Positions 16-64,000 of a stretch of DNA of 64,000 nt are shown in pieces. This DNA comes from Rugosibacter sp. Its GTDB lineage: Bacteria > Pseudomonadota > Gammaproteobacteria > Burkholderiales > Rhodocyclaceae. Position 1 is the stretch's first letter. Each line of letters opens with the position of its first letter. Under the pieces are notes generated by a model, which worked only from the letters and a program-made list of their open reading frames with translations, was not told the origin of the DNA and ran no database searches. The stretch is taken from NCBI GenBank assembly GCA_004322535.1, contig SCUZ01000064.1:48730-112729 (forward strand), in the 5' to 3' direction. The position numbers and the translations under genes were made by a program.

Positions 16-40
16 AAAAGTCGGCGCTGGCGAGACGGCG
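16..40 (+). repeat. Dispersed 25-bp motif, copy 1
   Basis: AAAAGTCGGCGCTGGCGAGACGGCG. Confidence 0.85.
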
Positions 41-3892: not shown

Positions 3893-4972
3893 TTGAGCAA
3901 AAGTTTTTCTAGCCGCCTCATCCACTGGCACGCGCAGCACGGGCGGCATGATCTGCCCTGGCAAAACACGCGCGACCCGTACCGCGTTTGGCTCTCGGAA
4001 ATCATGTTGCAGCAGACGCAGGTTGTCACGGTGATTCCCTACTATCAGCGTTTCCTCGCCCGCTTCCCCACGCTTGAATCGCTGGCGACTGCATCGGTTG
4101 AAGACGTCATGCCGCTATGGAGCGGGCTGGGCTATTACGCCCGCGCGCGCAACTTGCACCGGGCGGCGCGTGCGGTGATGGCGCAGCATAATGGCGTGTT
4201 TCCACAAGCACCAGAAGCTATTGCACAGTTGCCTGGCATTGGCCGTTCCACCGCTAACGCCATCGCGGTAGTGTGCTTTGGCGTGCGTGTGCCGATTCTG
4301 GATGGCAACGTCAAACGCGTCCTTTGTCGTGTGCTTGGCATTGCAGGAATCCCCGGCACAGCGGCGCTGGAAAGTCGGCTCTGGCAACACGCCGAGGACC
4401 TGTTACCGAAGTATGATTTGTCCAGAAACATGGCCACCTACATTCAGGCGCAGATGGATTTGGGCGCCACGCTATGCACACGCAGTCGGCCACAATGCAT
4501 CGCCTGCCCGTTAGCAGACATTTGCATAGCACATGCCACTGGACGCACTGCGGAATTACCGCAAAAGAAATTGCGCCGTGTAACTCCCGAACGTCACGCC
4601 ACGCTGCTGGTTATCGTGCATGAAAATCGCGTGCTACTGGAAACCCGCCCGCCGGTAGGCATTTGGGGCGGCCTGCTCTCTCTGCCCGAATTGCCGGCAG
4701 AAGAAAATGCTGCTGCCTATGTTGAAAAAAAATTCGGTGCCCGTGTGCTTGTGGCCTCCCCACCGTCGTCCGGAGATGGATTCAAGACTTTTCTACACAT
4801 CTTCACCCATTTTCGCCTGCACATCACGCCACTGTTATGCCGTGTGAGCTTGCGCCCGAGTGCAATGGAAGTAGGTTTCTTTTGGCTCGATTTAACGGCG
4901 CTGGGTACCGCCGCATTGCCAACGCCAGTCAGGCGCATTCTCGAAGAACTTAGATTGTCTCAACCTGCATGA
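3893..4972 (+). CDS. mutY: A/G-specific adenine glycosylase
   Basis: WLSEIMLQQTQVVTVIPYYQRFLARFP, GLGYYARARNLHRAA, LPGIGRSTANAI, Cys cluster CTRSRPQCIACPLADIC; TTG start. Confidence 0.95.
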   Translation: MSKSFSSRLIHWHAQHGRHDLPWQNTRDPYRVWLSEIMLQQTQVVTVIPYYQRFLARFPTLESLATASVEDVMPLWSGLGYYARARNLHRAARAVMAQHNGVFPQAPEAIAQLPGIGRSTANAIAVVCFGVRVPILDGNVKRVLCRVLGIAGIPGTAALESRLWQHAEDLLPKYDLSRNMATYIQAQMDLGATLCTRSRPQCIACPLADICIAHATGRTAELPQKKLRRVTPERHATLLVIVHENRVLLETRPPVGIWGGLLSLPELPAEENAAAYVEKKFGARVLVASPPSSGDGFKTFLHIFTHFRLHITPLLCRVSLRPSAMEVGFFWLDLTALGTAALPTPVRRILEELRLSQPA

Positions 4973-6776: not shown

Positions 6777-6986
6777 TTACCCTGTTTTTTTCTGCACGAC
6801 CTGCACTACAGCGCTGTTTTCAACCGCGCTTGCCGAGCGGTTCGCAACCTTGCCCAATACTTGCTTCTTTTCAGCGTCCGACATTTGGCTCCAATCCGCA
6901 ATTTCGTCCAGCGTTCGATAACAACCCAGACACAGATTGCCTTGCATACGACACACGTTGATGCAGGGTGAGTTAATCGCCGTCAT
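6777..6986 (-). CDS. DUF1289 domain protein
   Basis: NSPCINVCRMQGNLCLGCYRTLDEIADWSQMSDAEKKQVL. Confidence 0.85.
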   Translation of the reverse strand: MTAINSPCINVCRMQGNLCLGCYRTLDEIADWSQMSDAEKKQVLGKVANRSASAVENSAVVQVVQKKTG

Positions 6987-7002
6987 GCCAGCACCGACTT
7001 TT
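6978..7002 (-). repeat. Dispersed 25-bp motif, copy 2
   Basis: Reverse complement AAAAGTCGGTGCTGGCATGACGGCG. Confidence 0.8.
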
Positions 7003-9318: not shown

Positions 9319-11379
9319 CTAAATGCCACCAAAATTTTCTTCAAACGCCATCAACACCATACCTTCAGCAACAGGATCACCCACCGCAAAGTGAAAATCC
9401 TGCACGATACCGGCAGTGGGTGCGGTAACGGTATGCTCCATTTTCATCGCTTCGAGAATCAACAAGGGCGTGCCTTTGGCAACTTTCTCACCCGCTGTGA
9501 CGAGTAACGCAATTATTTTTCCTGGCATGGGGGCCATCACGCTACCTTCTGCTATCGCTTGTTGACCGGCGTGACTCAGCGGATCAAGCAAGGTCATCAC
9601 ATGCGATGTGCCGTGCATAAAGACATGGCGCTTTTCAGCCACAGGAATCACCGTGACAGTGCACCGTCGGCCACCAAAATCAGCGTGCAATACTCCTGTG
9701 TCATCTAACTGGCCAGTCGCCTCTATCCGCTGGCCACCGAGTTGTTGCCCACTCAATTGCTGAACCGCTATTTCGAATACAAAGCCTCGGCGGCTGGCTG
9801 TTGCAACCATGGTTTTTTCTACATCCCTACAACGCAAATTCAATGCCTGTTGGGCTTGTCCTGTCACACGCCAACCTGCTTGCGCATGCCAGGGGGAGTA
9901 TGGGTCCTTACTCTTTGCGGCACTCTTTGCAGCCTCTTTCTGGATGCGCAAGAGTTCAGCCAGCGCCGCACTCAACCACACTTCTAGCGGTAGCTCGGCG
10001 GGCGCTGGAAACAGAAAGGCTTGTTCACGTTCGATCAACCCGGTATCCAGACTGGCCTCAGCAAAAGCCGGACAAGCTACGAGGCGGGAAAGAAAATCAA
10101 CATTATTGGCCACACCGACAATTTCAACTTCGGCCAAGGCTTGCAGCATGCGTGCGCAGGCATGCGCTCGCGGCGCACTGTCGCTATCGTCCCAGACAAT
10201 CAGTTTGGCAATCATCGGATCATAGTGAGGCGTGATTTCATCCCCTGCCGCCACGCCAGCATCCATGCGCACAAAGGGCGTTTCAACAGGATAGGCAAAA
10301 TGAATCACGCGACCTGTCGAAGGCAGGAAACCTGTTCCCGGATCTTCGGCGTAAATGCGTGCTTCAAGCGCATGGCCACGCAGCGTGATCTGCTCTTGCG
10401 CCAAAGGCAGCGTCTCACCAGCGCCGACTTTTAATTGCCATTCGACCAGATCCAACCCGGTAATCATTTCCGTCACCGGATGCTCGACTTGCAGCCGCGT
10501 ATTCATTTCCATGAAGTAAAACGCACCGCCGGATGCGGCGCCCGGAACAATAAATTCCACCGTGCCCGCGCCCACATAGCCTACGGCGCGTGCAGCGCTC
10601 ACCGCCGCTTTGCCCATGGCCGCGCGACGCTCAGGCGTTAGCCCCGGGGCCGGGGCTTCTTCCAATACCTTCTGGTGGCGACGCTGCACCGAGCAATCCC
10701 GCTCGTACAAATACAGATAATTTCCATGACTATCGCCAAAAATCTGTACTTCAATATGCCGTGCGGGTTGCAAGTACTTTTCCAGCAGCACCTGTGCATC
10801 GCCAAAACTCGCGCTGGCCTCACGCTGACAAGACGCCAATGCATCCAGAAACCCAGCTTCTGCGGTCACCACACGCATACCTTTGCCGCCACCGCCTGCG
10901 ACAGCTTTTATGAGCACCGGATACCCAATTCTGTTTGCTTGCCGGCGCAAAAAATCCGATGCCTGCTCATCCCCGTGATACCCCGGCGTAAGCGGGACAC
11001 CGGCTTTTTCCATCAGTCGTTTAGCCGCTGACTTGGAACCCATGGCGCGAATAGCCGCCGCTGATGGGCCGATAAACACCAACCCATGTTGCACACAGGC
11101 TTCCGCAAATGCTGCATTTTCGGAAAGAAAGCCATAGCCAGGATGAATGGCTTGCGCGCCGCTTGCTTTAGCTACATCAATTATCTTATCGATGGCCAAA
11201 TACGATTCCGCAGGCGGGGCCGCGCCTATCCATAGCGCTTCATCTGCCATGCGCACATGGCGGGCATGCTCATCTACCGTTGAATACACAGCAACCGTCT
11301 TGATGCCCATACGACGCGCCGTTTTGATGATCCGGCATGCAATTTCGCCACGATTGGCAATAAGAAGCTTCGTGAACAT
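9319..11379 (-). CDS. liuD: Methylcrotonoyl-CoA carboxylase biotin-containing (alpha) subunit
   Basis: MFTKLLIANRGEIACRIIKTARRMGI...biotin motif ILEAMKMEHTVTAPTAG; in liu-gene context. Confidence 0.9.
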   Translation of the reverse strand: MFTKLLIANRGEIACRIIKTARRMGIKTVAVYSTVDEHARHVRMADEALWIGAAPPAESYLAIDKIIDVAKASGAQAIHPGYGFLSENAAFAEACVQHGLVFIGPSAAAIRAMGSKSAAKRLMEKAGVPLTPGYHGDEQASDFLRRQANRIGYPVLIKAVAGGGGKGMRVVTAEAGFLDALASCQREASASFGDAQVLLEKYLQPARHIEVQIFGDSHGNYLYLYERDCSVQRRHQKVLEEAPAPGLTPERRAAMGKAAVSAARAVGYVGAGTVEFIVPGAASGGAFYFMEMNTRLQVEHPVTEMITGLDLVEWQLKVGAGETLPLAQEQITLRGHALEARIYAEDPGTGFLPSTGRVIHFAYPVETPFVRMDAGVAAGDEITPHYDPMIAKLIVWDDSDSAPRAHACARMLQALAEVEIVGVANNVDFLSRLVACPAFAEASLDTGLIEREQAFLFPAPAELPLEVWLSAALAELLRIQKEAAKSAAKSKDPYSPWHAQAGWRVTGQAQQALNLRCRDVEKTMVATASRRGFVFEIAVQQLSGQQLGGQRIEATGQLDDTGVLHADFGGRRCTVTVIPVAEKRHVFMHGTSHVMTLLDPLSHAGQQAIAEGSVMAPMPGKIIALLVTAGEKVAKGTPLLILEAMKMEHTVTAPTAGIVQDFHFAVGDPVAEGMVLMAFEENFGGI
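10408..10432 (-). repeat. Dispersed 25-bp motif, copy 3 (in liuD)
   Basis: Reverse complement AAAAGTCGGCGCTGGTGAGACGCTG. Confidence 0.85.
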
Positions 11380-16558: not shown

Positions 16559-18214
16559 CTACATCCGAAAAATACCAAACTGCGTGGGCTGGATTGGAGC
16601 GTTAAGCGCAGCAGACATACCCAACGCCAAAACCTGCCGGGATTGCGCTGGGTCAATCACGCCATCGTCCCACAAGCGCGCAGTGGCGTAATACGGATGC
16701 CCTTGGGCTTCATATTGCGCCCGGATGGGCTCTTTGAAAGCCACTTCTTCTGCCGCGCTCCAGGGTTTGCCTGCGGCTTCAAACCCATCGCGCTTGATCG
16801 TCGCCAAGACGGACGCCGCCTGCTCGCCACCCATCACGCTAATGCGCGCATTGGGCCACATCCACAGCATGCGGGGAGAAAAAGCGCGGCCACACATGCC
16901 GTAATTGCCCGCGCCAAATGAGCCGCCAATAATCATGGTGAATTTTGGCACCTGCGCATTAGCCACGGCCATGACCAGCTTTGCGCCATCTTTGGCAATG
17001 CCGCCGTTTTCATATTTTCGCCCAACCATAAATCCGGTGATGTTCTGCAAGAACACTATCGGAATACCCCGCTGAGCACACAGCTCGACGAAATGTGCAC
17101 CCTTCAATGCCGACTCCGAAAACAAAATGCCGTTATTGGCCACAATGCCAATCGGGTAACCGTGCAAGCGGGCAAAGCCCGTGACGAGCGTTGTGCCATA
17201 GCGTGCCTTGAATTCATCAAAGCGTGAGCCATCCACCAGCCGGGCAATGACTTCACGTACGTCATACGGTTTTTTGGTGTCCGCCGGAATCACTCCCAGC
17301 AATTCAGCCGGGTCGTACAGTGGTTCTTCCGGTGTTGCCAAATCAAGCGTCACCGGTTTTTGCCAATTCAGATTACCCACGATTCCGCGCGCAATCGACA
17401 ACGCATGGTGATCGCTTTCTGCCAGATGATCACACACGCCAGAGACGCGCGTATGTACATCTCCGCCACCCAGATCCTCGATACTCACGACCTCGCCCGT
17501 GGCGGCTTTCACCAGTGGCGGGCCGCCCAGAAAAATCGTGCCCTGGTTTTTAACAATGATGCTTTCATCACTCATCGCCGGCACATACGCGCCACCTGCC
17601 GTGCACGAACCCATGACCACGGCGATTTGCGGAATACCCGCTGCACTCATGGTGGCCTGATTGAAAAAAATGCGGCCGAAGTGATCACGATCCGGAAACA
17701 CATCATCTTGAGCGGGCAAAAAAGCACCGCCTGAATCGACCAGATAAATACAGGGCAGCCGATTCTGCTGGGCAATTTCTTGCGCCCGCAAATGTTTCTT
17801 TACCGTCAGCGGATAGTAGGTTCCGCCTTTGACGGTAGCATCATTCGCCACGATCATGCACTCTACGCCACGCACGCGGCCAATGCCGGTGATTACACCG
17901 GCAGACGGCACGTTGTTCAAACCTGCATTCCCTTGATTTTCACCGTACATGCCATACGCCGCGAGGGTGGAAAATTCAAGAAACGCTGATCCCGGATCAA
18001 GCAGTGCGTCAATACGCTCTCGCGGCAATAGCTTGCCACGTGCAAGATGCTTGACGCGGGCTTGTTCAGAACCGCCCCGCATCACCAGCGCCGACTTTTC
18101 GTGCAAGTCATCGGTCAAAGCGCGCATGGCGGCGACATTCGCTTTGAATTCATCACTGCGAGTATGCACAGCTGATTGAATAACAGGCACTAAAAACCCC
18201 CTGTGGCAAGCCAC
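16559..18214 (-). CDS. liuB: Methylcrotonoyl-CoA carboxylase carboxyltransferase (beta) subunit
   Basis: [28 protein letters not shown]...[41 protein letters not shown]; start uncertain (GTG near 18193 possible). Confidence 0.92.
18075..18099 (-). repeat. Dispersed 25-bp motif, copy 4 (in liuB)
   Basis: Reverse complement AAAAGTCGGCGCTGGTGATGCGGGG. Confidence 0.9.
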
Positions 18215-23644: not shown

Positions 23645-23669
23645 GAAAGTCGGCGCTGATGAAGCAACG
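23645..23669 (+). repeat. Dispersed 25-bp motif, copy 5
   Basis: GAAAGTCGGCGCTGATGAAGCAACG. Confidence 0.7.
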
Positions 23670-26652: not shown

Positions 26653-26696
26653 AAAAGTCGGCGCTGGTAATAGGGCGAGGAACGTATTACCAGCGC
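26653..26696. repeat. Hairpin built of two inverted copies of the dispersed motif
   Basis: Stem GCGCTGGTAATA (26661-26672) / TATTACCAGCGC (26685-26696), 12-nt loop GGGCGAGGAACG. Confidence 0.95.
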
Positions 26697-26776: not shown

Positions 26777-29041
26777 GTGATCGAATTTCTTAATTTCATT
26801 GCCCTGCGCGGCCCTAATTTGTGGACTTACCGTCCTGTCATGGAGGCGTGGGTTGATATTGGTGTGCTTGAAGACTCACCCTCCAACACCCTCCCCGGCT
26901 TTAACGAGCGTTTGACCACCCTGCTGCCCACCCTGATTGAACACCGCTGTAGCTATGGCGAACAGGGCGGCTTTCTCAAGCGACTGGAAGACGGTACGTG
27001 GCCCGCGCATATCCTCGAACATGTCACCCTTGAATTGCAAAATCTGGCCGGCATGCCCGGGGGGTTTGGCAAGGCGCGCAGCACCTCGCGGCGCGGTGTG
27101 TATAAAGTGGCGGTGCGCAGCTGGCATGAAGACATCACTCGCCAGGCCCTGCTGTATGGACGTGATCTGGTCATGGCAGCGATCAACGCCACCGCGTTCG
27201 ATGTGCCCGCCGCCGTGACGCATCTCGCGCAGATGGCCGACCGCTTGCTGCTCGGCCCCAGCACGCAGGCCATTGTTGAAGCCGCCACTGCCAAGCAGCG
27301 ACGCATTCCGGCGATTCGCCTGAGTGAGGGAAATCTCGTGCAACTGGGCTATGGCATTCACAGCCGCCGCATCTGGACCGCCGAAACCGATGCCACCTCC
27401 GCCATTGCCGAAAGCATTTCCGGCGACAAGGCGCTCACTAACACGCTGCTACGTGCCTGCGGCGTGCCAGTGCCCGAAGGTAGCATTGTCAAAAGCGCCA
27501 CCGAGGCCTGGGAAGAAGCGCAATCCATCAACGCACCCGTGGTGATCAAACCGGTGGATGGCAATCATGGCCGTGGCGTTTCGGTTAACCTCTCGCGCCG
27601 CGAAGACATCGAGGCGGCTTTTACCCTCGCGCGAGAAACAGCCCGTGGTAGCGATGTGCTGCTGGAGCGGTTTATTCCCGGTATCGAACATCGCCTGCTG
27701 GTGGTAGGCGGCAAGCTGGTTGCCGCCGCGCGTGGCGAAGAAGCCTGGGTGGTGGGCGATGGCCAATCGACGGTGCAGCAGTTGATTGATCTGCAAATCA
27801 ATAGCGACCCGCGTCGCGGCACGGGTGAGGCCTCCCCGCTGAATCTCATCCAGGGCGACCCCGCAGTTGCGCTCGAACTCACGCGCCAGGGCGCCGCCAT
27901 TGATGCGGTGCCAGCCGCGGGCAAGCGCCTGCTCATCCAGCGCAATGGCAATGTGGCCTTTGATTGCACCGATGACGTGCACTCCGATACCATTGCGCTG
28001 GCAGCACTGGCAGCGCGCATCGTCGGGCTGGATATTGCAGGCATCGATCTAGTCGCGACCGACATCGCGCAACCACTCGCCACCCAGGGCGGTGCGATTG
28101 TCGAAGTCAATGCCGGGCCAGGGCTGCTGATGCACCTCAAGCCTGCCACTGGGCAACCACGCCCAGTCGGGCCGGCGATTGTGGATTACCTTTTTCCAGC
28201 AGAAGCAGATGACCACACCTCGGGCCGCATTCCGCTAGTGGGCATTACCGGCAGCGCCGGTAATGGAAACATTGCGGGAGATACCACGCTCACCGCGCAG
28301 ATACTCGATCACATCTTGCGCCTGACCGGCCAGGCCACCGGGCTAGCCTGTGCACAGGGCGTGTTTCTTGGCACCCTGCCTGTCGCCACACAGAGCTTGT
28401 CGCCTGCGGCTGCAGCGCAGACCTTGTTGATCAATCGCCAGACAGAAATCGTGGTGATTGAAAATTCCATCGAAACGATGCTGAACGAAGGGCTCGCCTA
28501 TGACCGCTGCCAAGTGGGAATCGTGACAGCACTCGATGCGGCTGATGTTTTACCGGCTTATCACATTGATACACCCGAGCGCCTGTTCAATGTGGTGCGC
28601 ACTCAAGTGGATGTCGTGTTGCCAGGCGGTGTGGCGGTGCTCAACGCAGACTGCCCGCTGGTGCGCGACATGGCAGAGTTGTGTGATGGCGAAGTGATCT
28701 TGTTCGCTGCTGGCACAGCAGACGATGTGGCAGTCGCAGAAGCCATCGCCGCACATCGCGCAAAAGATGGGAGAGCCGTTTTAATGCACGCAGGGATGAT
28801 CCTTCTGGTCACGGGCGGTCAAACACAACCATTGCTGGCGCTAGCAGATTTATCTTCACTGGCGGTGAAGGAAAAAGTCGGCGCTGGTAATACGCCACAC
28901 AGCCTTGAGTCCGTTTCTGGAAAATCCCCCTGGAGGACACCGACCAATAAAAACCTGACACCACTTCTCGCCGCCATAGGCGCAGCTTGGGCGCTGAATG
29001 TGCCACTGGCTACACTGCGCACCGGCATTGAAACTTTTTAA
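26777..29041 (+). CDS. Cyanophycin synthetase-like protein, degenerate Mur-ligase half (CphA'-type)
   Basis: ALRGPNLWTYRPVMEAWVDIG..., ATP-grasp VVIKPVDGNHGRGVSVNL; P-loop position reads GITGSAGNGNIAGDT. Confidence 0.88.
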   Translation: MIEFLNFIALRGPNLWTYRPVMEAWVDIGVLEDSPSNTLPGFNERLTTLLPTLIEHRCSYGEQGGFLKRLEDGTWPAHILEHVTLELQNLAGMPGGFGKARSTSRRGVYKVAVRSWHEDITRQALLYGRDLVMAAINATAFDVPAAVTHLAQMADRLLLGPSTQAIVEAATAKQRRIPAIRLSEGNLVQLGYGIHSRRIWTAETDATSAIAESISGDKALTNTLLRACGVPVPEGSIVKSATEAWEEAQSINAPVVIKPVDGNHGRGVSVNLSRREDIEAAFTLARETARGSDVLLERFIPGIEHRLLVVGGKLVAAARGEEAWVVGDGQSTVQQLIDLQINSDPRRGTGEASPLNLIQGDPAVALELTRQGAAIDAVPAAGKRLLIQRNGNVAFDCTDDVHSDTIALAALAARIVGLDIAGIDLVATDIAQPLATQGGAIVEVNAGPGLLMHLKPATGQPRPVGPAIVDYLFPAEADDHTSGRIPLVGITGSAGNGNIAGDTTLTAQILDHILRLTGQATGLACAQGVFLGTLPVATQSLSPAAAAQTLLINRQTEIVVIENSIETMLNEGLAYDRCQVGIVTALDAADVLPAYHIDTPERLFNVVRTQVDVVLPGGVAVLNADCPLVRDMAELCDGEVILFAAGTADDVAVAEAIAAHRAKDGRAVLMHAGMILLVTGGQTQPLLALADLSSLAVKEKVGAGNTPHSLESVSGKSPWRTPTNKNLTPLLAAIGAAWALNVPLATLRTGIETF
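28873..28897 (+). repeat. Dispersed 25-bp motif, copy 7 (in cphA-like CDS)
   Basis: AAAAGTCGGCGCTGGTAATACGCCA. Confidence 0.9.
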
Positions 29042-29064
29042 CTCACTTTTTACGTTATCTCTTC

Positions 29065-33428: not shown

Positions 33429-34220
33429 TCATTCATGCGCACGCAATTCTGCCAAATAGCGCAAGCCAAGAATAGCGCGGCTGCCGTACCACGAGACCAT
33501 TTCACCATCGATGCGTTGCACGGGCTTGCCGCTCAGTGCGGCGACTTCTGCTTCATGCCTGGCCGTGAAGGCAAAGGGCTCGGAGGGCAGCAGCACGCGG
33601 CCGGCTTGTGTTAGCCAGGGTGCATCCCATGCAAATTGCGGGAACCGTGTTGGCGCATCAAGGGGTAGCGTATCCCAGCCAGCGGCGGCGAGCATCGAAG
33701 CAATATAAGTGTCGCGGCGCACGGTCATCCACGGCTCGCGCCAGATAGGATACAGCACGGCTTCGCGCAGATAATTTTCAGTAACTCTGACCAGCGCTTC
33801 ATGTGCCAAGTGAAATTCGCCCTTCAATTTCTCGGCGTTGGCAATACGGCGAAATATTCCACCCAGCAGCGCATACAGGCTCAGATTGTCTTCCACGGTG
33901 CGTGGATGAACAACCACCACATGGGGCACGAAGGCCATCATCGCTTCCACCTGCTCACGGCGATTTTCGTCAATATCGGCAATCAGATGCGTGGGTTTGA
34001 GGGCGCGCACTTTATCCAGATTGACCTCCTTTGTACCCCCGATTTTCTGCACGCTGCGCAGTCTTTCCTTGGGATGCACGCAAAACCCGGTGCGGCCTGC
34101 TAGCGCATCGGCAAGGCCCAGATCGCAAATCAATTCGGTCAGGCTGGGCACCAGGCTGACGATGCGTGGCGTGCCGTTAAATGGTGTGTGTTCGCGGCCC
34201 AGCGCATCGACTAAAACCAT
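33429..34220 (-). CDS. Cobalamin-type ABC transporter substrate-binding / helical backbone metal receptor protein
   Basis: PRIVSLVPSLTELICDLGLADALAGRTGFCVHP...VGGTKEVNLDKVRALKPTHLIA-like. Confidence 0.82.
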   Translation of the reverse strand: MVLVDALGREHTPFNGTPRIVSLVPSLTELICDLGLADALAGRTGFCVHPKERLRSVQKIGGTKEVNLDKVRALKPTHLIADIDENRREQVEAMMAFVPHVVVVHPRTVEDNLSLYALLGGIFRRIANAEKLKGEFHLAHEALVRVTENYLREAVLYPIWREPWMTVRRDTYIASMLAAAGWDTLPLDAPTRFPQFAWDAPWLTQAGRVLLPSEPFAFTARHEAEVAALSGKPVQRIDGEMVSWYGSRAILGLRYLAELRAHE

Positions 34221-34223
34221 GGG

Positions 34224-35000
34224 TTACCAATCCAGGCCACGCGGTTTTCTGCCCGCACGAGCGAAAATCGCATCGAACAGCGGGTTAGGCAACAGCCGCA
34301 AAAACTTGGCCACCCAACCCATCTGCCAGGGAATCACGACATAGCTCGTGCCGCGTGTAATGGCGCGTGCGAAACGGTGAGCAGCGATATCAGCAGGGAG
34401 CAAAAATGGCATGGGGTAGGGATTTTTTGCTGTCATCGGCGTGGCGATATACCCGGGCAAAAGCGTGACAACCTGAATGCCACTGCCGTGCAACTCAACC
34501 CGCAAGGCTTCAATATACGCGATGACAGCGGCTTTGGAAGCGGAGTAGGCACCCGCACCGGGCAGGCCGCGAATGCCTGCTACCGAGGCAATGCCAACCA
34601 GGGTGCCACTGCCGCGCGTTTGCATGGCTTGGATAAACGGGGCGAAGGTATGCACCACGCCGAGCACGTTGGTTTCAAATACACGGCGAAAAGCGGGCAG
34701 ATCGTCCACTTCGCCGGTGAGGGTGCCCACGGAGATACCCGCATTGGCGATCACGATGTCCGGGCAACCGAAACGCGCGATGAAATCTGTCGCCGCCGCT
34801 TGCAATGCGGGCGCATCGGCCACATCCAGCGGGTAAGTTGCATGCATGCCGGGTAGCTCAGCGACCAGATCAGAAAGTCGGCGCGGGTGACGCGCCGCCA
34901 GCCCTAGTGTGGCGCCGCCAGCCGCATAGTGATGTGCCAAGGCCGCACCAATGCCACTGGATGCGCCGGTGAGAAAAATGCGCATGGGCTGACTAAACAA
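34224..35000 (-). CDS. SDR family oxidoreductase
   Basis: IFLTGASSGIGAALAHHYA...YSASKAAVIAYIEALRVEL. Confidence 0.9.
   Translation of the reverse strand: MFSQPMRIFLTGASSGIGAALAHHYAAGGATLGLAARHPRRLSDLVAELPGMHATYPLDVADAPALQAAATDFIARFGCPDIVIANAGISVGTLTGEVDDLPAFRRVFETNVLGVVHTFAPFIQAMQTRGSGTLVGIASVAGIRGLPGAGAYSASKAAVIAYIEALRVELHGSGIQVVTLLPGYIATPMTAKNPYPMPFLLPADIAAHRFARAITRGTSYVVIPWQMGWVAKFLRLLPNPLFDAIFARAGRKPRGLDW
34873..34897 (+). repeat. Dispersed 25-bp motif, copy 8 (antisense in SDR gene)
   Basis: GAAAGTCGGCGCGGGTGACGCGCCG. Confidence 0.7.
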
Positions 35001-40671: not shown

Positions 40672-41719
40672 AAACCACACGCCGCTCTTGCTTTATTTCA
40701 GCCTGGGGTACGCGGTGCTGATTGTCTATGCCAGCCTGTACCCGCTCACCGGCTGGCAGAGCAATGGTGTATCCCCTTTTGATTTTTTCTTTGCCGGTTG
40801 GCCACGTTACACCACCATGTTTGACCTGCTGATCAATGTGGCGGCCTATATTCCCTTGGGATTTTTTCTTGCCACGGCGCTGCGCCCTCGCGTTGCGCCA
40901 AAACACGCCTTGTGGCTAGCCGTGCTCGCAGCGGCGGCATTGAGTTTTGTGCTGGAATTTACGCAAAACTATTTACCCAGCCGCGTGGCTTCCAATCTCG
41001 ATCTCGCGGGGAACGCGTGCGGCGCGTTGCTGGGTGCCTTGCCAGGTGCACTCTGGCGCCGACAGTTGATCGACAACTTGCGGCATACCCATTGGCCCGA
41101 TCACGGGCAAAGTGTCGAGCTGGGACTCGTCTTCTTGGGACTATGGCTGCTGACTCAGCTCGACCCAACCACCTTGCTGTTTGGCGCTGGCGATTTGCGC
41201 AGTCTCCTGCCACTACCCAACACACAGCCCTTTAGCGCCGCCGGCTTTGTACGCATTGAAAGTCTGATTGCCGCCAGCGGTCTGCTCGCTGCGCTATTGA
41301 TGGCAAGCCTTATCGCGCCGCATCACCAACGCCGACTTTTTCCCCTGCTGCTACTTGCGGTGGGCCTGGCGGCAAAATCGCTCGCCTTTGCACTCATGAC
41401 GCATCCGCAAACAGCACTGGCCTGGGCCACCCCTGGCGGGCTTATGGGGTCACTGGCTGGTGGTTTATTGTGGCTTGCGGCACTGGTACTGCCGCCAAGC
41501 TGGCAGCGCCTGCTGGCGACGGTCGCCTTGCTCACCGCCAGCGTGATGGTCAATCTCGCGCCCGTTAACCCATACCTTGAAAATTTACAGAACACCTGGA
41601 ATCCGGGCCAGTTTCTCAACTTTCACGGCTTGACGCACTTCGTTACCTTGCTGTGGCCTTATCTGGCGTTACCCTGGTTTGCATTCCACCGGACTTATAT
41701 CCGCAATGATTTGCCATGA
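40664..41719 (+). CDS. VanZ-like family membrane protein
   Basis: YAVLIVYASLYPLTGWQ...DLLINVAAYIPLGFFLATALRP...FTQNYLPSRVASNLDLAGNACGALLG; GTG at 40664 more plausible than ORF start 40538. Confidence 0.8.
   Translation: MNKNHTPLLLYFSLGYAVLIVYASLYPLTGWQSNGVSPFDFFFAGWPRYTTMFDLLINVAAYIPLGFFLATALRPRVAPKHALWLAVLAAAALSFVLEFTQNYLPSRVASNLDLAGNACGALLGALPGALWRRQLIDNLRHTHWPDHGQSVELGLVFLGLWLLTQLDPTTLLFGAGDLRSLLPLPNTQPFSAAGFVRIESLIAASGLLAALLMASLIAPHHQRRLFPLLLLAVGLAAKSLAFALMTHPQTALAWATPGGLMGSLAGGLLWLAALVLPPSWQRLLATVALLTASVMVNLAPVNPYLENLQNTWNPGQFLNFHGLTHFVTLLWPYLALPWFAFHRTYIRNDLP
41316..41340 (-). repeat. Dispersed 25-bp motif, copy 9 (antisense in VanZ-like gene)
   Basis: Reverse complement AAAAGTCGGCGTTGGTGATGCGGCG. 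Confidence 0.9.
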
Positions 41720-42465: not shown

Positions 42466-44339
42466 GCCTGCTCAAACCCATCCTGCGACTTTTTTTCTTC
42501 ACGGTTATTAGTGTCAAGGGACTGAGCTTCGCCGCTGAACCCTTGTCGCCAGCACAAGCATTCATGTTCTCGGCACGTGCGCTGGATGCGCACACGCTGG
42601 AAGCCCGCTGGCAGATTGCGGAGGGTTACTACCTTTACCGCAATAAATTTGCTTTTCATCTCTCGGCAAATTCATCTGATGAAAAACCTGCCCACGAACT
42701 CGGTAAAGTGCAATTGCCGCCAGGCAAAATGAAACAGGATGATCTGTTTGGCGCGGTCGAAACTTATCGCCAGGAAGTCACTGTTCGCCTGCCGCTGAAC
42801 ACGCTTGAAAACACCATGACGGCTACTGATGCACCGCACACCATAATCTTGCAGGCAGTTGCCCAAGGATGCTGGGATGGGGGTATCTGCTATCCGCCAC
42901 AAACCTATACCGCACCGATCACCCTGCCACAAGTGGTTGCTGGCGCGTCGATCGCATCGCCAACGCTCACTGCAACAGCCAACGCGGCAGCGACTTCCGG
43001 CGATGAAAGCTCGCGTATCACGCATCTACTCAAAGGCGGCCATTGGTCGTTGATCGTGCTCAGCTTTTTTGGTTTTGGCTTGCTCCTATCGCTCACTCCC
43101 TGCGTGTTTCCGATGATCCCGATTTTGTCCGGCATCATTGTGAATCACGGCCATGCGGTAAGCCACGGGCGCGCCTTCATGTTGTCTTTGGCCTATGTGC
43201 TGGGCATGGCCGTCACCTATGCTGCGGCCGGCGTGGCGGCAGGATTTTCCGGCGCCCTACTCACCAGCGCGTTACAAAATGGCTGGGTACTGGGGGGCTT
43301 TGCGCTGATCTTTGTCGCGCTGGCGTTTTCAATGTTCGGCTTTTACGAATTGCAGCTGCCCTCCGCCTTGCAAAGCCGGCTGGCCAATACTGCCAACCGG
43401 CAGGGTGGCTCCGTCTGGGCCATTGCGCTGATGGGGGCGTTATCCGCGTTAATTGTCGGCCCTTGTGTGGCCGCCCCGTTGGCAGGCGCGCTGCTGTACA
43501 TCGCCCAGACAGGAGACGCGCTGCTCGGCGGTGCAGCGCTGTTTTCGCTGGCGCTGGGCATGGGCGCACCACTGTTGCTGGTAGGCACCTTCTCGCGCTC
43601 ATTGTTGCCAAAATCAGGGCCGTGGATGGAAGCGGTGAAACAGTTTTTTGGCGTGCTCATGCTGGCCACCGCATTGTGGTTGGCATCCCCTGTCTTGCCC
43701 ATCTGGATATCCATGCTGGGCTGGGCGTTATTGTTGATTATTTCCGCCGTGTTTCTATCGGCCCTTGACCCTTTGCCTGCACATGCGCACGGCATGCAAC
43801 GTCTGGGTAAAGGGATAGGCGTTGTCATATTGTTGGGCGGCATCGCGATGCTGCTGGGCGTACTCGGTGGCAGCAAAGACCCGTTGCAGCCCCTGGATTT
43901 TTTGCGCCGCAGCGCCGCACAGAAGTCGCCTGCCGATAGCACTAAATCTTCCCTATCCGCCGCATCACCAGCGCCGACTTTTATTAAAATCCACACACTT
44001 GCCGAGCTCGACGCGCAACTGCAAACCATCGCACAAACCACAAAAAAACCCGTGATGCTCGACTTCTGGGCCGAATGGTGCATCAGTTGCAAGGAAATGG
44101 AACGCTTTACCTTTGCGCAGGCTGACGTGGCAAAACGCATGCAGGATTTTGTTCTGCTGCAAGCCGATGTCACCGAAAATAACGCCGCTGATCGTATGCT
44201 GCTTGCCCGCTTCGGCTTGTTCGGCCCACCGGGGATTATTTTCTTTGACGCCCAAGGCCACGAAAAATTCGGCCAGCGTGTTGTCGGCTTCCAAAATGCC
44301 GAACAGTTTTTGCAACAACTTGAACGCGCTGCTCACTAA
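42459..44339 (+). CDS. dsbD: Protein-disulfide reductase DsbD
   Basis: LTPCVFPMIPILSGIIV, C-terminal thioredoxin FWAEWCISCKEME. Confidence 0.95.
   Translation: MLSLLKPILRLFFFTVISVKGLSFAAEPLSPAQAFMFSARALDAHTLEARWQIAEGYYLYRNKFAFHLSANSSDEKPAHELGKVQLPPGKMKQDDLFGAVETYRQEVTVRLPLNTLENTMTATDAPHTIILQAVAQGCWDGGICYPPQTYTAPITLPQVVAGASIASPTLTATANAAATSGDESSRITHLLKGGHWSLIVLSFFGFGLLLSLTPCVFPMIPILSGIIVNHGHAVSHGRAFMLSLAYVLGMAVTYAAAGVAAGFSGALLTSALQNGWVLGGFALIFVALAFSMFGFYELQLPSALQSRLANTANRQGGSVWAIALMGALSALIVGPCVAAPLAGALLYIAQTGDALLGGAALFSLALGMGAPLLLVGTFSRSLLPKSGPWMEAVKQFFGVLMLATALWLASPVLPIWISMLGWALLLIISAVFLSALDPLPAHAHGMQRLGKGIGVVILLGGIAMLLGVLGGSKDPLQPLDFLRRSAAQKSPADSTKSSLSAASPAPTFIKIHTLAELDAQLQTIAQTTKKPVMLDFWAEWCISCKEMERFTFAQADVAKRMQDFVLLQADVTENNAADRMLLARFGLFGPPGIIFFDAQGHEKFGQRVVGFQNAEQFLQQLERAAH
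43958..43982 (-). repeat. Dispersed 25-bp motif, copy 10 (antisense in dsbD; equals consensus)
   Basis: Reverse complement AAAAGTCGGCGCTGGTGATGCGGCG. Confidence 0.92.
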
Positions 44340-44373: not shown

Positions 44374-44985
44374 ATGTTTACCGGCATTATTTCCGCCATT
44401 GGCAGCATTACCCAGGTCACTCCGCTTGAAACGGGGCTGCGCTTAGCGATACAGGCGCCCACGCTGGATCTGTCGGACGTCGCACTGGGGGATTCCATTG
44501 CGCATAATGGTGTCTGCCTCACAGTCATCAGTAAAGAAGGCGCCACCTATCAAGTCGATGTCTCGCGTGAAACCCTGGATTGCACGGTAGGCCTGGATGG
44601 CGCGGGTGGGGCCAGTGAATTGAACCTTGAAAAGGCGTTGCGCCTGTCCGATCGGCTGGGTGGGCATCTGGTCGCAGGCCATGTGGATGGCGTCGGTGAA
44701 GTCATCCGCCTCGCGCCCGTGGGCGAATCGCACGAGCTGGTCATTCGCGCCCCGCAAGAACTCGCGAAAACCATCGCCTCCAAAGGCTCGATCACCGTGA
44801 ATGGCGTATCGCTCACCACAAACCGCATCACCAACGCCGACTTTTCGATCAACCTGATCCCGCACACCATGGCCATGACCACTCTGCATCACCTGCGTGT
44901 GGGCAGCCGCGTGAATCTTGAAGTTGACCTCATCGCACGCTATGTAGAGCGGATACTTATCGCCAGCGGCGTGACAGCGGTGTAA
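44374..44985 (+). CDS. ribE: Riboflavin synthase alpha subunit
   Basis: MFTGIISAIGSITQV...GGHLVAGHVDGVGEV...SITVNGVSLTTN. Confidence 0.95.
   Translation: MFTGIISAIGSITQVTPLETGLRLAIQAPTLDLSDVALGDSIAHNGVCLTVISKEGATYQVDVSRETLDCTVGLDGAGGASELNLEKALRLSDRLGGHLVAGHVDGVGEVIRLAPVGESHELVIRAPQELAKTIASKGSITVNGVSLTTNRITNADFSINLIPHTMAMTTLHHLRVGSRVNLEVDLIARYVERILIASGVTAV
44821..44845 (-). repeat. Dispersed 25-bp motif, copy 11 (antisense in ribE)
   Basis: Reverse complement AAAAGTCGGCGTTGGTGATGCGGTT. Confidence 0.88.
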
Positions 44986-47075: not shown

Positions 47076-47101
47076 GAATTTCTCATGCGAATTTCTCATG
47101 C
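47076..47101 (+). repeat. 13-bp perfect tandem duplication at thiL start
   Basis: GAATTTCTCATGC GAATTTCTCATGC. Confidence 0.97.
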
Positions 47102-48042
47102 CTTCTGAGTTCGAGCTGATCCGCCAGTTTTTTGTTCGTCCAACGTCCCATACGCTGCTGGGCGTGGGTGATGATGCGGCATTGATTGCCCCGACACCTG
47201 GCTGTGAGCTCGTCATCTCAACCGACCTGCTCGTAGAAGGCACGCATTTTCTCGGCAACACCGCGCCCTTTGACCTCGGCTGGAAAACCCTGGCCGTCAA
47301 TGTCTCCGACATGGCCGCCATGGGTGCTACACCTCGCTGGGCAACACTGGCCGCCGCATTGCCAGCGCCGACTCTTGATTGGCTCGATGCTTTTTCACGC
47401 GGCTTTTTTGCCTGCGCCGAGGCATTCAAAATCGACCTCATCGGCGGCGACACCACCCGTGGACCACGGGCCTTTTGCGTCACGATCATGGGTGAGGTCC
47501 CTGCTGGACAGGCACTGCTGCGCAGTGGTGCGCAAGTGGGCGACTCGATCTGGGTCTCTGGCACCCCCGGACGCGCAGCCCTCGGATTAGCCCATTTACA
47601 AGGCCGCATAACGCTTGCCGAACCGCAGCTGGATCAATGCCTGGCAGCCCTGCATCGCCCGCAACCACGGGTGGTGCTTGGCTTGGCATTGCGTGGCTTG
47701 GCCACTGCGGCGATTGATGTTTCCGATGGTTTACTCGCTGATCTCGGGCACATCCTGACAGCCTCGCACTGCGTAGCAAAGCTCCATATACCGCATCTGC
47801 CGCCCGCCGGATTAGCGCGCGATTGTTATCTTTCGGGAGGCGATGATTACGAACTGATTTTCACGCTTCCCGCAGCGCATCGCCCCTTCATGGCCACCTT
47901 GGCGGTTGAGATCGATTTACCGCTCACCTGCATTGGCGCTATTACCTCCCCTGTGCCAAACACATCAGACAGGTTTGTTATTCACGATGACCAGGGATTA
48001 CCCATTACCCCAACGCGCCACGGTTTTGACCATTTCCTTTAA
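47098..48042 (+). CDS. thiL: Thiamine-monophosphate kinase
   Basis: MPSEFELIRQFFVRPTSHTLLGVGDDAALI...AVNVSDMAAMGATPRWATLAAALP. Confidence 0.93.
   Translation: MPSEFELIRQFFVRPTSHTLLGVGDDAALIAPTPGCELVISTDLLVEGTHFLGNTAPFDLGWKTLAVNVSDMAAMGATPRWATLAAALPAPTLDWLDAFSRGFFACAEAFKIDLIGGDTTRGPRAFCVTIMGEVPAGQALLRSGAQVGDSIWVSGTPGRAALGLAHLQGRITLAEPQLDQCLAALHRPQPRVVLGLALRGLATAAIDVSDGLLADLGHILTASHCVAKLHIPHLPPAGLARDCYLSGGDDYELIFTLPAAHRPFMATLAVEIDLPLTCIGAITSPVPNTSDRFVIHDDQGLPITPTRHGFDHFL
47352..47376 (-). repeat. Dispersed 25-bp motif, copy 12 (antisense in thiL)
   Basis: Reverse complement AAGAGTCGGCGCTGGCAATGCGGCG. Confidence 0.82.
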
Positions 48043-48562: not shown

Positions 48563-49060
48563 ATGGATCCGGAGCTTGCCGCCTTGTCCCTGGCGATCGG
48601 TCAAGCCGCCATGACCCGCATTGCTACTATTGCCACGGCAGAATCCTGTACCGGCGGCTGGGCAGCGCAAGTCATTACGCATACCGCAGGCAGTTCCGCA
48701 TGGTTCGACCGCGGGTTTATCACTTATTCCAACGCCGCCAAAAGTGACATGCTAGGCGTACAAGACCAGACGCTTGCCACCCACGGGGCGGTCAGTGAAG
48801 CCACAGCGCGAGAAATGGCGCTGGGTGCCTTAATGCATTCTTCCGCGTCCCACGCGCTAGCAATTACCGGCATTGCCGGCCCGGCAGGCGGGTCTGCCGC
48901 CAAGCCGATCGGCACCATCTGTTTTGCCTGGTGTTGTGCAGGGCAACCACCCTCTGCTGAAACCCTGTGTTTTTCAGGTGACCGTGAAGCCATTCGCCGC
49001 CAGGCGGTGATTCATGCGCTTAACGGATTACTTGCTCGCTTGGTTGAAAGCCCACAGTAA
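48563..49060 (+). CDS. CinA-type nicotinamide-nucleotide amidohydrolase
   Basis: IATAESCTGGWAAQVITHTAGSSAWFDRGFITYSNAAKSDMLGV. Confidence 0.93.
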   Translation: MDPELAALSLAIGQAAMTRIATIATAESCTGGWAAQVITHTAGSSAWFDRGFITYSNAAKSDMLGVQDQTLATHGAVSEATAREMALGALMHSSASHALAITGIAGPAGGSAAKPIGTICFAWCCAGQPPSAETLCFSGDREAIRRQAVIHALNGLLARLVESPQ

Positions 49061-55372: not shown

Positions 55373-58300
55373 ATGGCCGCACAATCCATCAATCCAGATG
55401 ACAGCGGTTTCTTCTGGCAAATTTACAACGAGGCCAGGGATCCCATTCTGTTGACCAAGGATGGCCGCTTTCTTGATTGCAATCAGGCCGCCCTGGCGCA
55501 GCTGGGCTTACGCGACAAAGCCGAACTCTGTCACCTGACGCTGATTTCGGTCTCGCCGCCTTTGCAACCTGATGGCCGTGCCTCGGCTGAAAAGCTGACT
55601 GAAGTGTCGAAGCTTATCGCACAAGCCGGATATCACCGCTTCGAGTGGGCGTGCAAACGGGCGGACGGCTCCCTGTTCGATATCGAAGTCACGGCCACAG
55701 TCATCACCATCAATGACGAGCCGGTGTTCCACGCACATTGGCGCGACATTGGCGAGCAAAAGCGCCTGGCCAGGGAACTGCACGAAAGCCAGGAGGCGGC
55801 ACGCAAAATTTTTGACGAGGCCGCCGACCCTGTCATCCTGTTCAAGCAAAGTGTTGCGGTTGATTGCAACAAGGCCGCATTGCAACAGCTCGGGTATCAA
55901 CGCAACCAGGATTTGCTGGGCCTTACCCCCCAAGACATCTCGCCACCGGTTCAGGAGAACGGGCAGCAAACAAAAGACCGCCAAACGGAAGTGACCGCCG
56001 CCGCGCTACGCGACGGTAAAAATAGTTTCGAGTGGCTGTTAAAGCGTACCGATGGTTCGCTAATCGAGACTGAAACTACGCTCACCACCATTACTGTGCA
56101 TGATGAGGAAATACGGCATATGCGCTGGCGCGACATTGGCGAGCAAAAGCGCCTGGCCAGGGAACTGCGTGAAAGTCAGGAGGCGGCACGCAAAATTTTT
56201 GACGAGGCCGCCGACCCCGTAATTCTGTACAAAAAAGGCGTTGCAGTCGATTGCAACAAGGCAGCGCTGCAACAACTCGGGTATCAGCGCAAACAGGATT
56301 TGCTGGGCCTTACCCCCGAAGACATATCGCCACAGGTTCAGGAGAGCGGGCAGCAAACAAAAGACCGCGAAGCAGAAGTGATCGCCGCCGCGCTGCGCGA
56401 TGGTACAAAGGGTTTCGAGTGGCAATTGAAGCGCACTGACGGCTCGCTGATCGAGACTGAAATCACGCTCACCGCCATTACCGTGCATGGTGAGGAGGTG
56501 CTGCACATACGCTGGCGCGACATCGGCGAACAAAAACGCCTGGCCAAGGAACTGCGCGAAAGCGAAGAGTCCTTCCGGCGGATTTTTGATGAAGCCGCTG
56601 CACCGCTCATGCTCATAAAAAATGATGGCCGTATTTTCGACAGCAATCAGGCCGCAGTACGGTTGTTTGGTTACCCCAGCAAGCAGCTTCTTGCCGGCAA
56701 ATCGCCGACAGAGATGGCTTTGCCCTGGCAGCCGGACGGGCGCGTTTCTACCCAGATGGCGCACGAGATGATCACCATCACGCTACACAAGGGGTACCAC
56801 CATTTCGGGTGGCAGATGCGATGCATGGATGGCTCCCTCGTGGATACGGAAATCACCCTGACAAGGATAACCGTGCATGGCGAAACGTTGATCCATGCGC
56901 AAATACGCGACCTGACCGAGCAAAACCGCCTGCGCACCGCGCTATATGCCGAAAAGGAGCGCGCGGAGATTACCCTTGCCTCGATCGGTGATGCCGTCAT
57001 CACGACCGACGCCGAAGGGTGCATCACCTTCATCAACCATGTGGCCAGCCAGCTCACTGGCTGGCTGGCGAGCGAGGCTATCGGGCAACCTATGGCCGAC
57101 GTCTTTCATATCGTCAATGAAACCACCCGTGCGCGGGTGGTTAGCCCGGTCGATGAGGTGTTGAAGAATGGCAAAACGGTCAACCTTGCCAATCACACGG
57201 TGCTGATTGCGCGTGATGGCAAGGAATACAACATTGAGGATTCGGCCGCGCCTATCTTCCTGCGTGACGACACGCTTCTGGGCTGCGTCCTGGTTTTCCA
57301 TGATGTTTCCGAAAAACACCAGTTGCTGAAAAGTGTGCGCTGGCAGGCGGGGCACGATGTGCTCACTGGCCTGCCGAATCGTGTCTTACTTGCCGACCGG
57401 TTTCAGCGGGCATTGGCGAACGCCCGCCGCCAGAAAAATCTGCTGGGCGTGTGCTTGATGGATCTGGATCAGTTCAAACCGGTGAATGATCTGTATGGTC
57501 ACGATATGGGCGACCGCCTGCTGATTGAAGTCACCGCCCGCATGAATCAGGCCGTGCGCAGCGAGGATACTGTCGCCCGGCTCGGCGGCGACGAGTTTGT
57601 CATGTTGCTGGGCGGTCTTGCCGACCGCCAGCAACTGGAACTTGTCCTGCGGCGCATCCTTGAAACCGTCTCTGCGCCGTATGTTATAGAAGAACACACG
57701 ATCAGCATTTCGGCCAGTATTGGCGTAGCCATTTATCCGCTTGATGAAGCCGATGCCGATACCCTGCTGCGCCACGCCGATCAGGCGATGTATCTGGCCA
57801 AGCAGGCAGGGCGCAACCGCTTCCACTGGTTCGACGTTGCGAACGACCGGCAGGCACAAACTTCGCAGCAGACGCTGGCCCGCATCCGCGAGGCTCTGCA
57901 GGACGATGAGCTGTGTCTGCATTACCAACCCAAGGTCAATATGCGCAATGGCAACATCGTTGGCATGGAAGCCTTGCTACGCTGGCAACACCCACAACAA
58001 GGTCTCGTACCACCGATGGATTTTCTGCCCCTGGCCGAACAGCATGATCTGATTATCGAGATTGGCGAATGGGTCATCGAGCAGGCGTTGCAGCAAAACG
58101 CCACCATGTGGTCAGCGGCAGGAAAGGACTGGCCAATCAGCGTAAATATCGCTGCTCGCCATTTTCAGTTGTCGGATTTTCTTGATCGATTGAAAGCCAT
58201 TCTCGCACGCCATCCTGAATCGCCACCGCAGCAACTGGAACTCGAAATTCTCGAATCTGTCGCATTGGGTGACATACAACACGTACAGCAACTGATTTAC

Positions 58301-61112: not shown

Positions 61113-61137
61113 CGCCGCGTTACCCGTGCCGACTTTT
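61113..61137 (-). repeat. Dispersed 25-bp motif, copy 13
   Basis: Reverse complement AAAAGTCGGCACGGGTAACGCGGCG. Confidence 0.75.
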
Positions 61138-63163: not shown

Positions 63164-64000
63164 ATGAATTTTGATTTCGACGCACCGGTTGAGCGCACGG
63201 GCACGGATTCGGAGAAATGGGCAAAGTACGCCGGCCGCGACATCCTGCCACTGTGGGTAGCCGACATGGATTTCGCCGCGCCGCCCGCAGTGATTGCCGC
63301 CTTGCATGCACGCGTGGCGCACGGCGTATTCGGTTACAACCAACCCACTGCGCAGCAAACCGAAACCGTGATGAATTATCTGGCGCGCCAATTCGCCTGG
63401 GCCATTGCGCCCGAATGGATCGTCTGGCTGCCAGGTCTGGTTTCTGCGCTCAATGTGGTTTGCCGTGCCATCGGCGAAAAAGATGATGCCGTGTTTACTG
63501 CAACACCGATTTATCCGCCCTTTCTCTCCGCGCCAAAACACGCAGAACGGCGCCTGATCAGTGTGCCACTAGTGCAAGGCAAGCACCGCTGGGAATGGGA
63601 TTTCGACGCGGTGGATGCCACACTAGAAGGCTCGTCAACAAAACTTTTTCTGCTCTGCCATCCGCACAACCCGACCGGCCGCGCATGGCAGATTGATGAG
63701 CTGACACAGCTTGCGCGGCTGGCTGAAAAACATGATCTTGTCATCTGCTCGGACGAAATCCACAACGGACTGGTCCTTTCGCCGCCGTCTCACCAGCACC
63801 GAGTTTTTGCAACACTCGGCGACGACATCGCGGCGCGCACCATTACGTTGATGGCGCCATCGAAAACCTTCAACATCCCGGGATTGGGCTGTGCCTTTGC
63901 CGTGATTTCCGATGCCACCTTGCGGCGCAAATTCACCACCGCCATGCGCGGCATCGTGCCGCATGCCAACGCCTTGGGCATGGCCGCCACTGAAGCCGCG
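63164..64000 (+). CDS. MalY/PatB family C-S lyase/aminotransferase, truncated by window end
   Basis: MNFDFDAPVERTGTDSEKWAKY...LPLWVADMDFAAPPAVIAAL...HNPTGRAW...APSKTFNIPGL. Confidence 0.9.
   Translation, partial: MNFDFDAPVERTGTDSEKWAKYAGRDILPLWVADMDFAAPPAVIAALHARVAHGVFGYNQPTAQQTETVMNYLARQFAWAIAPEWIVWLPGLVSALNVVCRAIGEKDDAVFTATPIYPPFLSAPKHAERRLISVPLVQGKHRWEWDFDAVDATLEGSSTKLFLLCHPHNPTGRAWQIDELTQLARLAEKHDLVICSDEIHNGLVLSPPSHQHRVFATLGDDIAARTITLMAPSKTFNIPGLGCAFAVISDATLRRKFTTAMRGIVPHANALGMAATEAA
63783..63807 (-). repeat. Dispersed 25-bp motif, copy 14 (antisense in patB-like gene)
   Basis: Reverse complement AAAACTCGGTGCTGGTGAGACGGCG. Confidence 0.75.

Follow-up and report, generated by a model that had tools for sequence, protein, structure and literature searches.

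Sequence-specific DNA uptake tags have been described for the Neisseriaceae and the Pasteurellaceae, and Rickettsia palindromic elements (RPE) are hairpin-forming, in-frame insertions that lengthen proteins. The DNA uptake sequences (DUS) of Neisseria are placed in permissive regions, and many of them face gaps (PMC2397512). Repetitive extragenic palindromic (REP) elements are palindromes tagged with GTAG or CGTC (PMC3733652). Here we describe a 25-nt motif that is dispersed in the genome of Rugosibacter sp. (assembly GCA_004322535.1) and has a copy in the riboflavin synthase gene ribE. The window, which is the whole analysed stretch of 64,000 nt, covers positions 48,730 to 112,729 of contig SCUZ01000064.1. 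In our view this word probably serves a Rhodocyclaceae clade as an uptake-sequence-like DNA signal, which was fixed in place at permissive sites and is sometimes split by in-frame modules.

The Neisseriaceae DUS (AT-GCCGTCTGAA and its dialects) has 12 nt, whereas the Rhodocyclaceae motif has 25 nt with two conserved arms, differs in sequence, is less dense and holds in-frame hairpin modules. Like the uptake signal sequence (USS) of the Pasteurellaceae, it is a genome-wide word that is conserved while its flanks vary (PMC2397512), but the sequence and the taxon are different. The module-bearing forms resemble RPE in that they lengthen proteins in frame, as seen in congener alleles, and form hairpins, while the common short form is directional and non-palindromic and left the length of the four tested proteins unchanged. 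With REP elements the motif shares the character of a short dispersed repeat with hairpin-forming versions, but its main form has no palindrome, is mostly intragenic and carries no terminal GTAG or CGTC tag in its consensus.

The consensus was derived by aligning every AGTCGGCG with its flanks, both in the Rugosibacter sp. genome and in the complete congener G113. The two genomes yielded the identical consensus AAAAGTCGGCGCTGGTGANACGGCG, a non-palindromic word of about 33 bits by weight matrix with sharp edges on either side. In the 826 kb of the own genome, 174 sites reached at least 20 bits, compared with 0 after an order-3 Markov shuffle (one shuffle), and the weight matrix found 186 sites in the 1.28 Mb of G113. 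The core AAAGTCGGCGCTGG occurred in 178 exact copies in the whole genome (96 on the plus strand and 82 on the minus strand), while the same letters reversed did not occur. The orientations in G113 were 102 and 84, and each 200-kb bin in the part of this genome that was examined held both, so a replication-polar motif was rejected. Over-representation of a short non-palindromic word and the use of both strands without replication polarity are traits of uptake sequences, and both were found here. An Rfam search of four stretches returned one tRNA only and no known RNA family for the motif. In addition, a letter search of the literature found no paper on the motif or on its module A described below, and the matches of the shorter string AAAGTCGGCG were, by title, on unrelated subjects.

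The initial annotation had placed the ribE copy (Table 1), which encodes NRITNADF, in a stretch with the length typical of riboflavin synthases. This was borne out by the identical loop length in 77 of 98 retrieved orthologous sequences, a set in which a few genomes are present twice. Copies were likewise found in thiL, liuD and liuB, where the same annotation had placed them without extra residues. The outgroup for the gap comparison was Ca. Desulfobacillus denitrificans (G010, which holds locus L001, with identical coordinates and score of the RibE match), a nearly motif-free genome with 3 copies in 400 kb. The ribE residues NRITNADF aligned without gaps to NRVTGTDF of the outgroup, AAALPAPTL of thiL to AAALPQADE, and LKVGAGETLPL of liuD to LRVAAGEPLPL; the liuB copy was also gap-free. 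The motif scores of the ribE orthologs rose from a median of -16.7 bits to 17.7 bits in Ca. Desulfobacillus and 31 bits in the genus at unchanged length, because the D-F-S codons can already yield AAAAGTC, and the closest orthologs already half-match the motif. Moreover, the outgroup DNA at 26 gap-free sites had a mean of -19 bits, compared with -51 bits in control windows. In ribE, thiL, liuD and liuB the motif replaced existing codons, and the protein length was unchanged.

As a general rule, adaptation in place is too strong a claim. It stood for the four named genes, but an indel was present at the motif in 16 of 40 coding sites (40%), compared with 98 of 1345 random windows (7%, p = 2e-8). 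Among equally variable windows of low identity the frequency was 50 of 157 (32%), and the motif sites did not have significantly more (p = 0.35). Insertions of at least 6 residues were found at 4 of the 40 motif sites, compared with 6 of the 1345 random windows (p = 1e-4) and 4 of the 157 low-identity windows (p = 0.06). Since the sites of G000 and G113 overlap, the 40 sites are not all independent and these p-values are too small. The comparison with the two kinds of windows indicates that the loops occupied by the motif are variable ones and that any excess of insertions there is small. Insertions of 8-9 residues exactly at the motif, which the initial annotation had set against its own claim, gave no clean flush case in the 40 sites. 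Nitrosomonadales and Gallionella relatives have long in-frame insertions of other kinds (about 29-50 aa) in the same loops of ThiL (L050) and RibE (L063 and L080), which marks these loops as landing places in general.

About one tenth of the motifs hold extra sequence between AAAAGT and GGCG, which usually forms a hairpin. The lengths seen were +15, 18, 21, 24, 27, 36, 42 and 60 nt, nearly all multiples of three; in intergenic DNA as well, the lengths are almost constant and mostly divisible by three. The recurrent forms were module A (TCCCGAAGGGACGCAAAGCGCTG, +21), module B (CTTGAGTCCGTCTCTGGA, +18), module C (TATGCGNANCGGTATCC..., +24), module D (+27), module E (+42) and a +60 form (AAAAGTCGGCGCTGATGAAGCAACTGCGCTACAAGGCGGTCGAGCAAAAAACGCTCTCTTCGCCGTAGCAGATGG...), a long nested hairpin with three copies in G113 (the 'b' piece of contig C1). 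The left part of this form is similar to the weak copy at 23645 in the window. The stems of module A show two-sided changes (TCCC/GGGA, TTCC/GGAA and TCTC/GAGA). In G113, module C follows AAAAGTT in 4 of 4 copies, and module E is followed by CTGG and motif letters in 5 of 6.

Within the genus, orthologous motif copies often differ in that one of them holds an in-frame module of 18-27 nt, and in this respect the contrast with in-frame palindromic insertion elements, which had been drawn for the motif in general, applies to the four named genes and not to the congener alleles. Three states of thiL exist in the genus: short in the own genome, G153, G154 and G152, with the 18-nt module B in G113, and with the 21-nt module A in G149, so that short alleles lie to either side of the +18 form. 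The ribE motif is short in the own genome and G113, and it is split by a common 24-nt insert in G153 and G154, the two closest relatives, which are congeners of 95% identity and sisters of each other (96.5% identical). This insert is C-like, with 16 of 24 letters shared by hand count. The histories of thiL and ribE favour insertion into a pre-existing short motif.

These modules bear on the alternative that the motif and its module forms belong to a single family of small mobile elements, whose ends are fixed (AAAAGT ... GCTGGTGANACGGCG) while the hairpin centre varies, and which entered genes in frame as RPE do; the short form would then have lost its centre. The occurrence of modules almost only between two motif ends, their near-constant lengths and hairpin folds, and the excess of indels and of long insertions over random windows all speak for such a family. 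We nevertheless regard it as unlikely, since ribE, thiL, liuD and liuB acquired the motif without added residues, no flush insertion of 8-9 residues was seen in the 40 sites, and the short thiL alleles around the +18 form of G113 favour insertion and not loss. Furthermore, no transposase was linked to the motif. A palindromic (REP or RPE) reading of the short motif was rejected, as its consensus has a direction and no residues were added to the four named proteins.

Conservation at the DNA level agrees with the reading of the word as an uptake-sequence-like signal. Where a coding site is shared with G113, the identity was 0.896 in the motif and 0.787 in the flanks, compared with 0.850 and 0.843 in control windows. 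At the 35 gap-free shared coding sites, third codon positions had an identity of 0.869 within the motif and of 0.704 in its flanks, and position 19, the sole unspecified position of the motif, was the least conserved (0.66). The third-codon conservation, together with the low conservation of the free position, indicates that selection acts on the DNA word. Within the own genome, 128 of the 174 copies lie in coding sequences and 42 are intergenic. As 90% of the DNA is covered by the gene calls, the motif is about three times as dense between genes as within them, although these fractions are approximate because a simple hexamer script was used to call genes. Five reading frames are used in genes with a biased usage (peptides KVGAGDT, APTF, RRxTSADF, HHQRRLF and EKSAL), and the frame containing a TGA or TAA codon was used once. 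The intragenic copies sit in permissive protein loops, nearly all in stop-free frames, and this placement in permissive regions of a word that is itself conserved as DNA is a further trait of uptake sequences. The position along the gene showed no clear trend, and no obvious enrichment was seen in shared compared with random regions, as 76 of the 174 sites were alignable with G113, similar to controls.

At least six genera of the Rhodocyclaceae have the motif, with 56-439 exact cores per genome in g1, g2, g9, g20, g39 and g47. The core was near zero in most other genera of the family that were sampled, and a 23-nt version of the motif was almost absent from the other Burkholderiales sampled outside the family. 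In two genomes from two other families of the order (G193 and G240) the long motif occurs three or four times, far above expectation yet at a very low level, which may reflect transfer or a relic dialect. The right end of the motif in g20 is ACGGCA rather than ACGGCG at a few loci, and by its letters this variant resembles a dialect; the dialect data for the other genera rest on 3.6-kb loci. Among contigs of a viral collection, 65 carry an exact motif copy (L242-L306), some with 3-7 sites in 3-15 kb. The motif density beyond the seed matches was 89 per Mb in these contigs, whose flanks may be proviral.

The strong DNA-level conservation, the use of both orientations and the genus-wide occurrence would also suit a binding site of a chromosome-organising, repair or regulatory protein, a site that selection maintains for DNA binding and not for uptake. 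We think this improbable, because a word of about 33 bits with hundreds of intragenic copies in permissive loops and with probable genus dialects suits uptake sequences better, only a quarter of the copies are intergenic, and the strand polarity expected of segregation or Chi-like sites was not seen. Convergence at the protein level, or a chance resemblance between unrelated loops, has a negligible probability and is already refuted by the frame distribution, since five frames, both strands and intergenic DNA contain the same DNA word and shuffles do not, even though some orthologous residues (DFS in ribE and VxAGE in liuD) already give part of the motif.

If the word is an uptake-sequence-like signal, recognition would take place on the DNA itself, whichever way the word is oriented. 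Motif-bearing DNA would be preferentially taken up and recombined, which would favour copies as for the DUS of Neisseria and the USS of the Pasteurellaceae, and near-matches would be pulled towards the consensus through this preferential uptake. A second process may act on the finished motif, in which short modules, usually hairpin-forming and with lengths in multiples of three, enter between AAAAGT and GGCG and lengthen the protein in frame. Their entry would probably occur by recombination with module-bearing copies elsewhere, for which the arms may supply the homology. Several points weigh against this reading. The literature search found no study that tested DNA uptake or transformation in these bacteria, and no receptor was identified, although no search was made for ComP or the candidate PpdA/ComN. 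ComEC was found in every motif-bearing genome searched (an 832-aa open frame in G000), but almost the whole family has it (148 of 151). It therefore does not discriminate motif bearers and was rejected as a discriminating marker of competence. No two copies are less than 120 bp apart, and the intergenic copies thus lack the close inverted pairs forming terminators, a trait that is frequent in DUS and USS but does not define them. The density of one motif per 4-7 kb is low beside published DUS counts, the indels at 16 of the 40 coding sites count in the same direction, and the modules with conserved outer ends could mean that the whole is a family of mobile elements.

The copies in the window are listed in Table 1. 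Pfam matches were consistent with the gene names thiL, liuD and liuB. The motif in the dsbD linker is found at the same place in several other genera, and the length of this linker varies.

Table 1. Motif copies and their host genes in the 64,000-nt window (positions count from its first letter).
Feature	Position	Strand	Score (bits)	Remarks
Motif copy	16..40	+	41.5	
Motif copy in mutY-like DNA glycosylase gene	4370..4394	+	29.8	
Motif copy at stop end of minus-strand gene	6978..7002	-	32.0	
liuD motif copy	10408..10432	-	38.4	KVGAGETLPL; gap-free with outgroup RVAAGEPLPL
liuB motif copy	18075..18099	-	34.2	Gap-free with outgroup AKTAEVSLGG
Weak intergenic copy	23645..23669	+	21.8	G153 lacks 25 nt overlapping the copy
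Intergenic copy preceding cyanophycin synthetase gene	26653..26677	+	34.8	
Motif copy in C-terminal part of cyanophycin synthetase-like gene	28873..28897	+	37.4	
Degenerate copy in periplasmic-binding-protein gene	33827..33851	+	18.6	Motif-like only in own genome, G153 and G154
Motif copy	34873..34897	+	28.6	Gap-free in five congeners
Motif copy in VanZ-like membrane protein	41316..41340	-	37.9	HHQRRLF
Motif copy in dsbD periplasmic linker	43958..43982	-	40.9	SPAPTF
ribE, riboflavin synthase (203 aa)	44374..44985	+		
ribE motif copy	44821..44845	-	30.6	Reverse complement scored; reads AACCGCATCACCAACGCCGACTTTT; encodes NRITNADF
thiL, thiamine-phosphate kinase (AIRS family)	47098..48042	+		Pfam
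thiL motif copy	47352..47376	-	33.0	AAALPAPTL
Intergenic copy	61113..61137	-	28.3	
Motif copy in aminotransferase gene	63783..63807	-	36.1	G154 has a 9-nt insertion at the edge

Two adjacent genes at 26777-31647, the first of which is cyanophycin synthetase-like by Pfam, have direct repeats of 60-90 nt in common. In addition, four tandem units of about 387 nt, which are about 70-89% identical, lie at 55640-56932 within an open frame of 1244 codons and are perhaps repeated sensor domains.

We tentatively suggest that an unusually long, two-armed 25-nt uptake signal in a further bacterial family may also be an entry site for hairpin modules with lengths in multiples of three, and could thus combine a tag of self-DNA with a docking place for in-frame protein insertions. 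If this is true, an independent, long and graded tag in environmental Rhodocyclaceae would open the question of how uptake tags arise. Their origin would be approachable in this family because, for the same genes, it offers outgroups without the motif, half-matches and full copies. Furthermore, the in-frame modules within the tag would be an added route by which short peptides spread among unrelated proteins.
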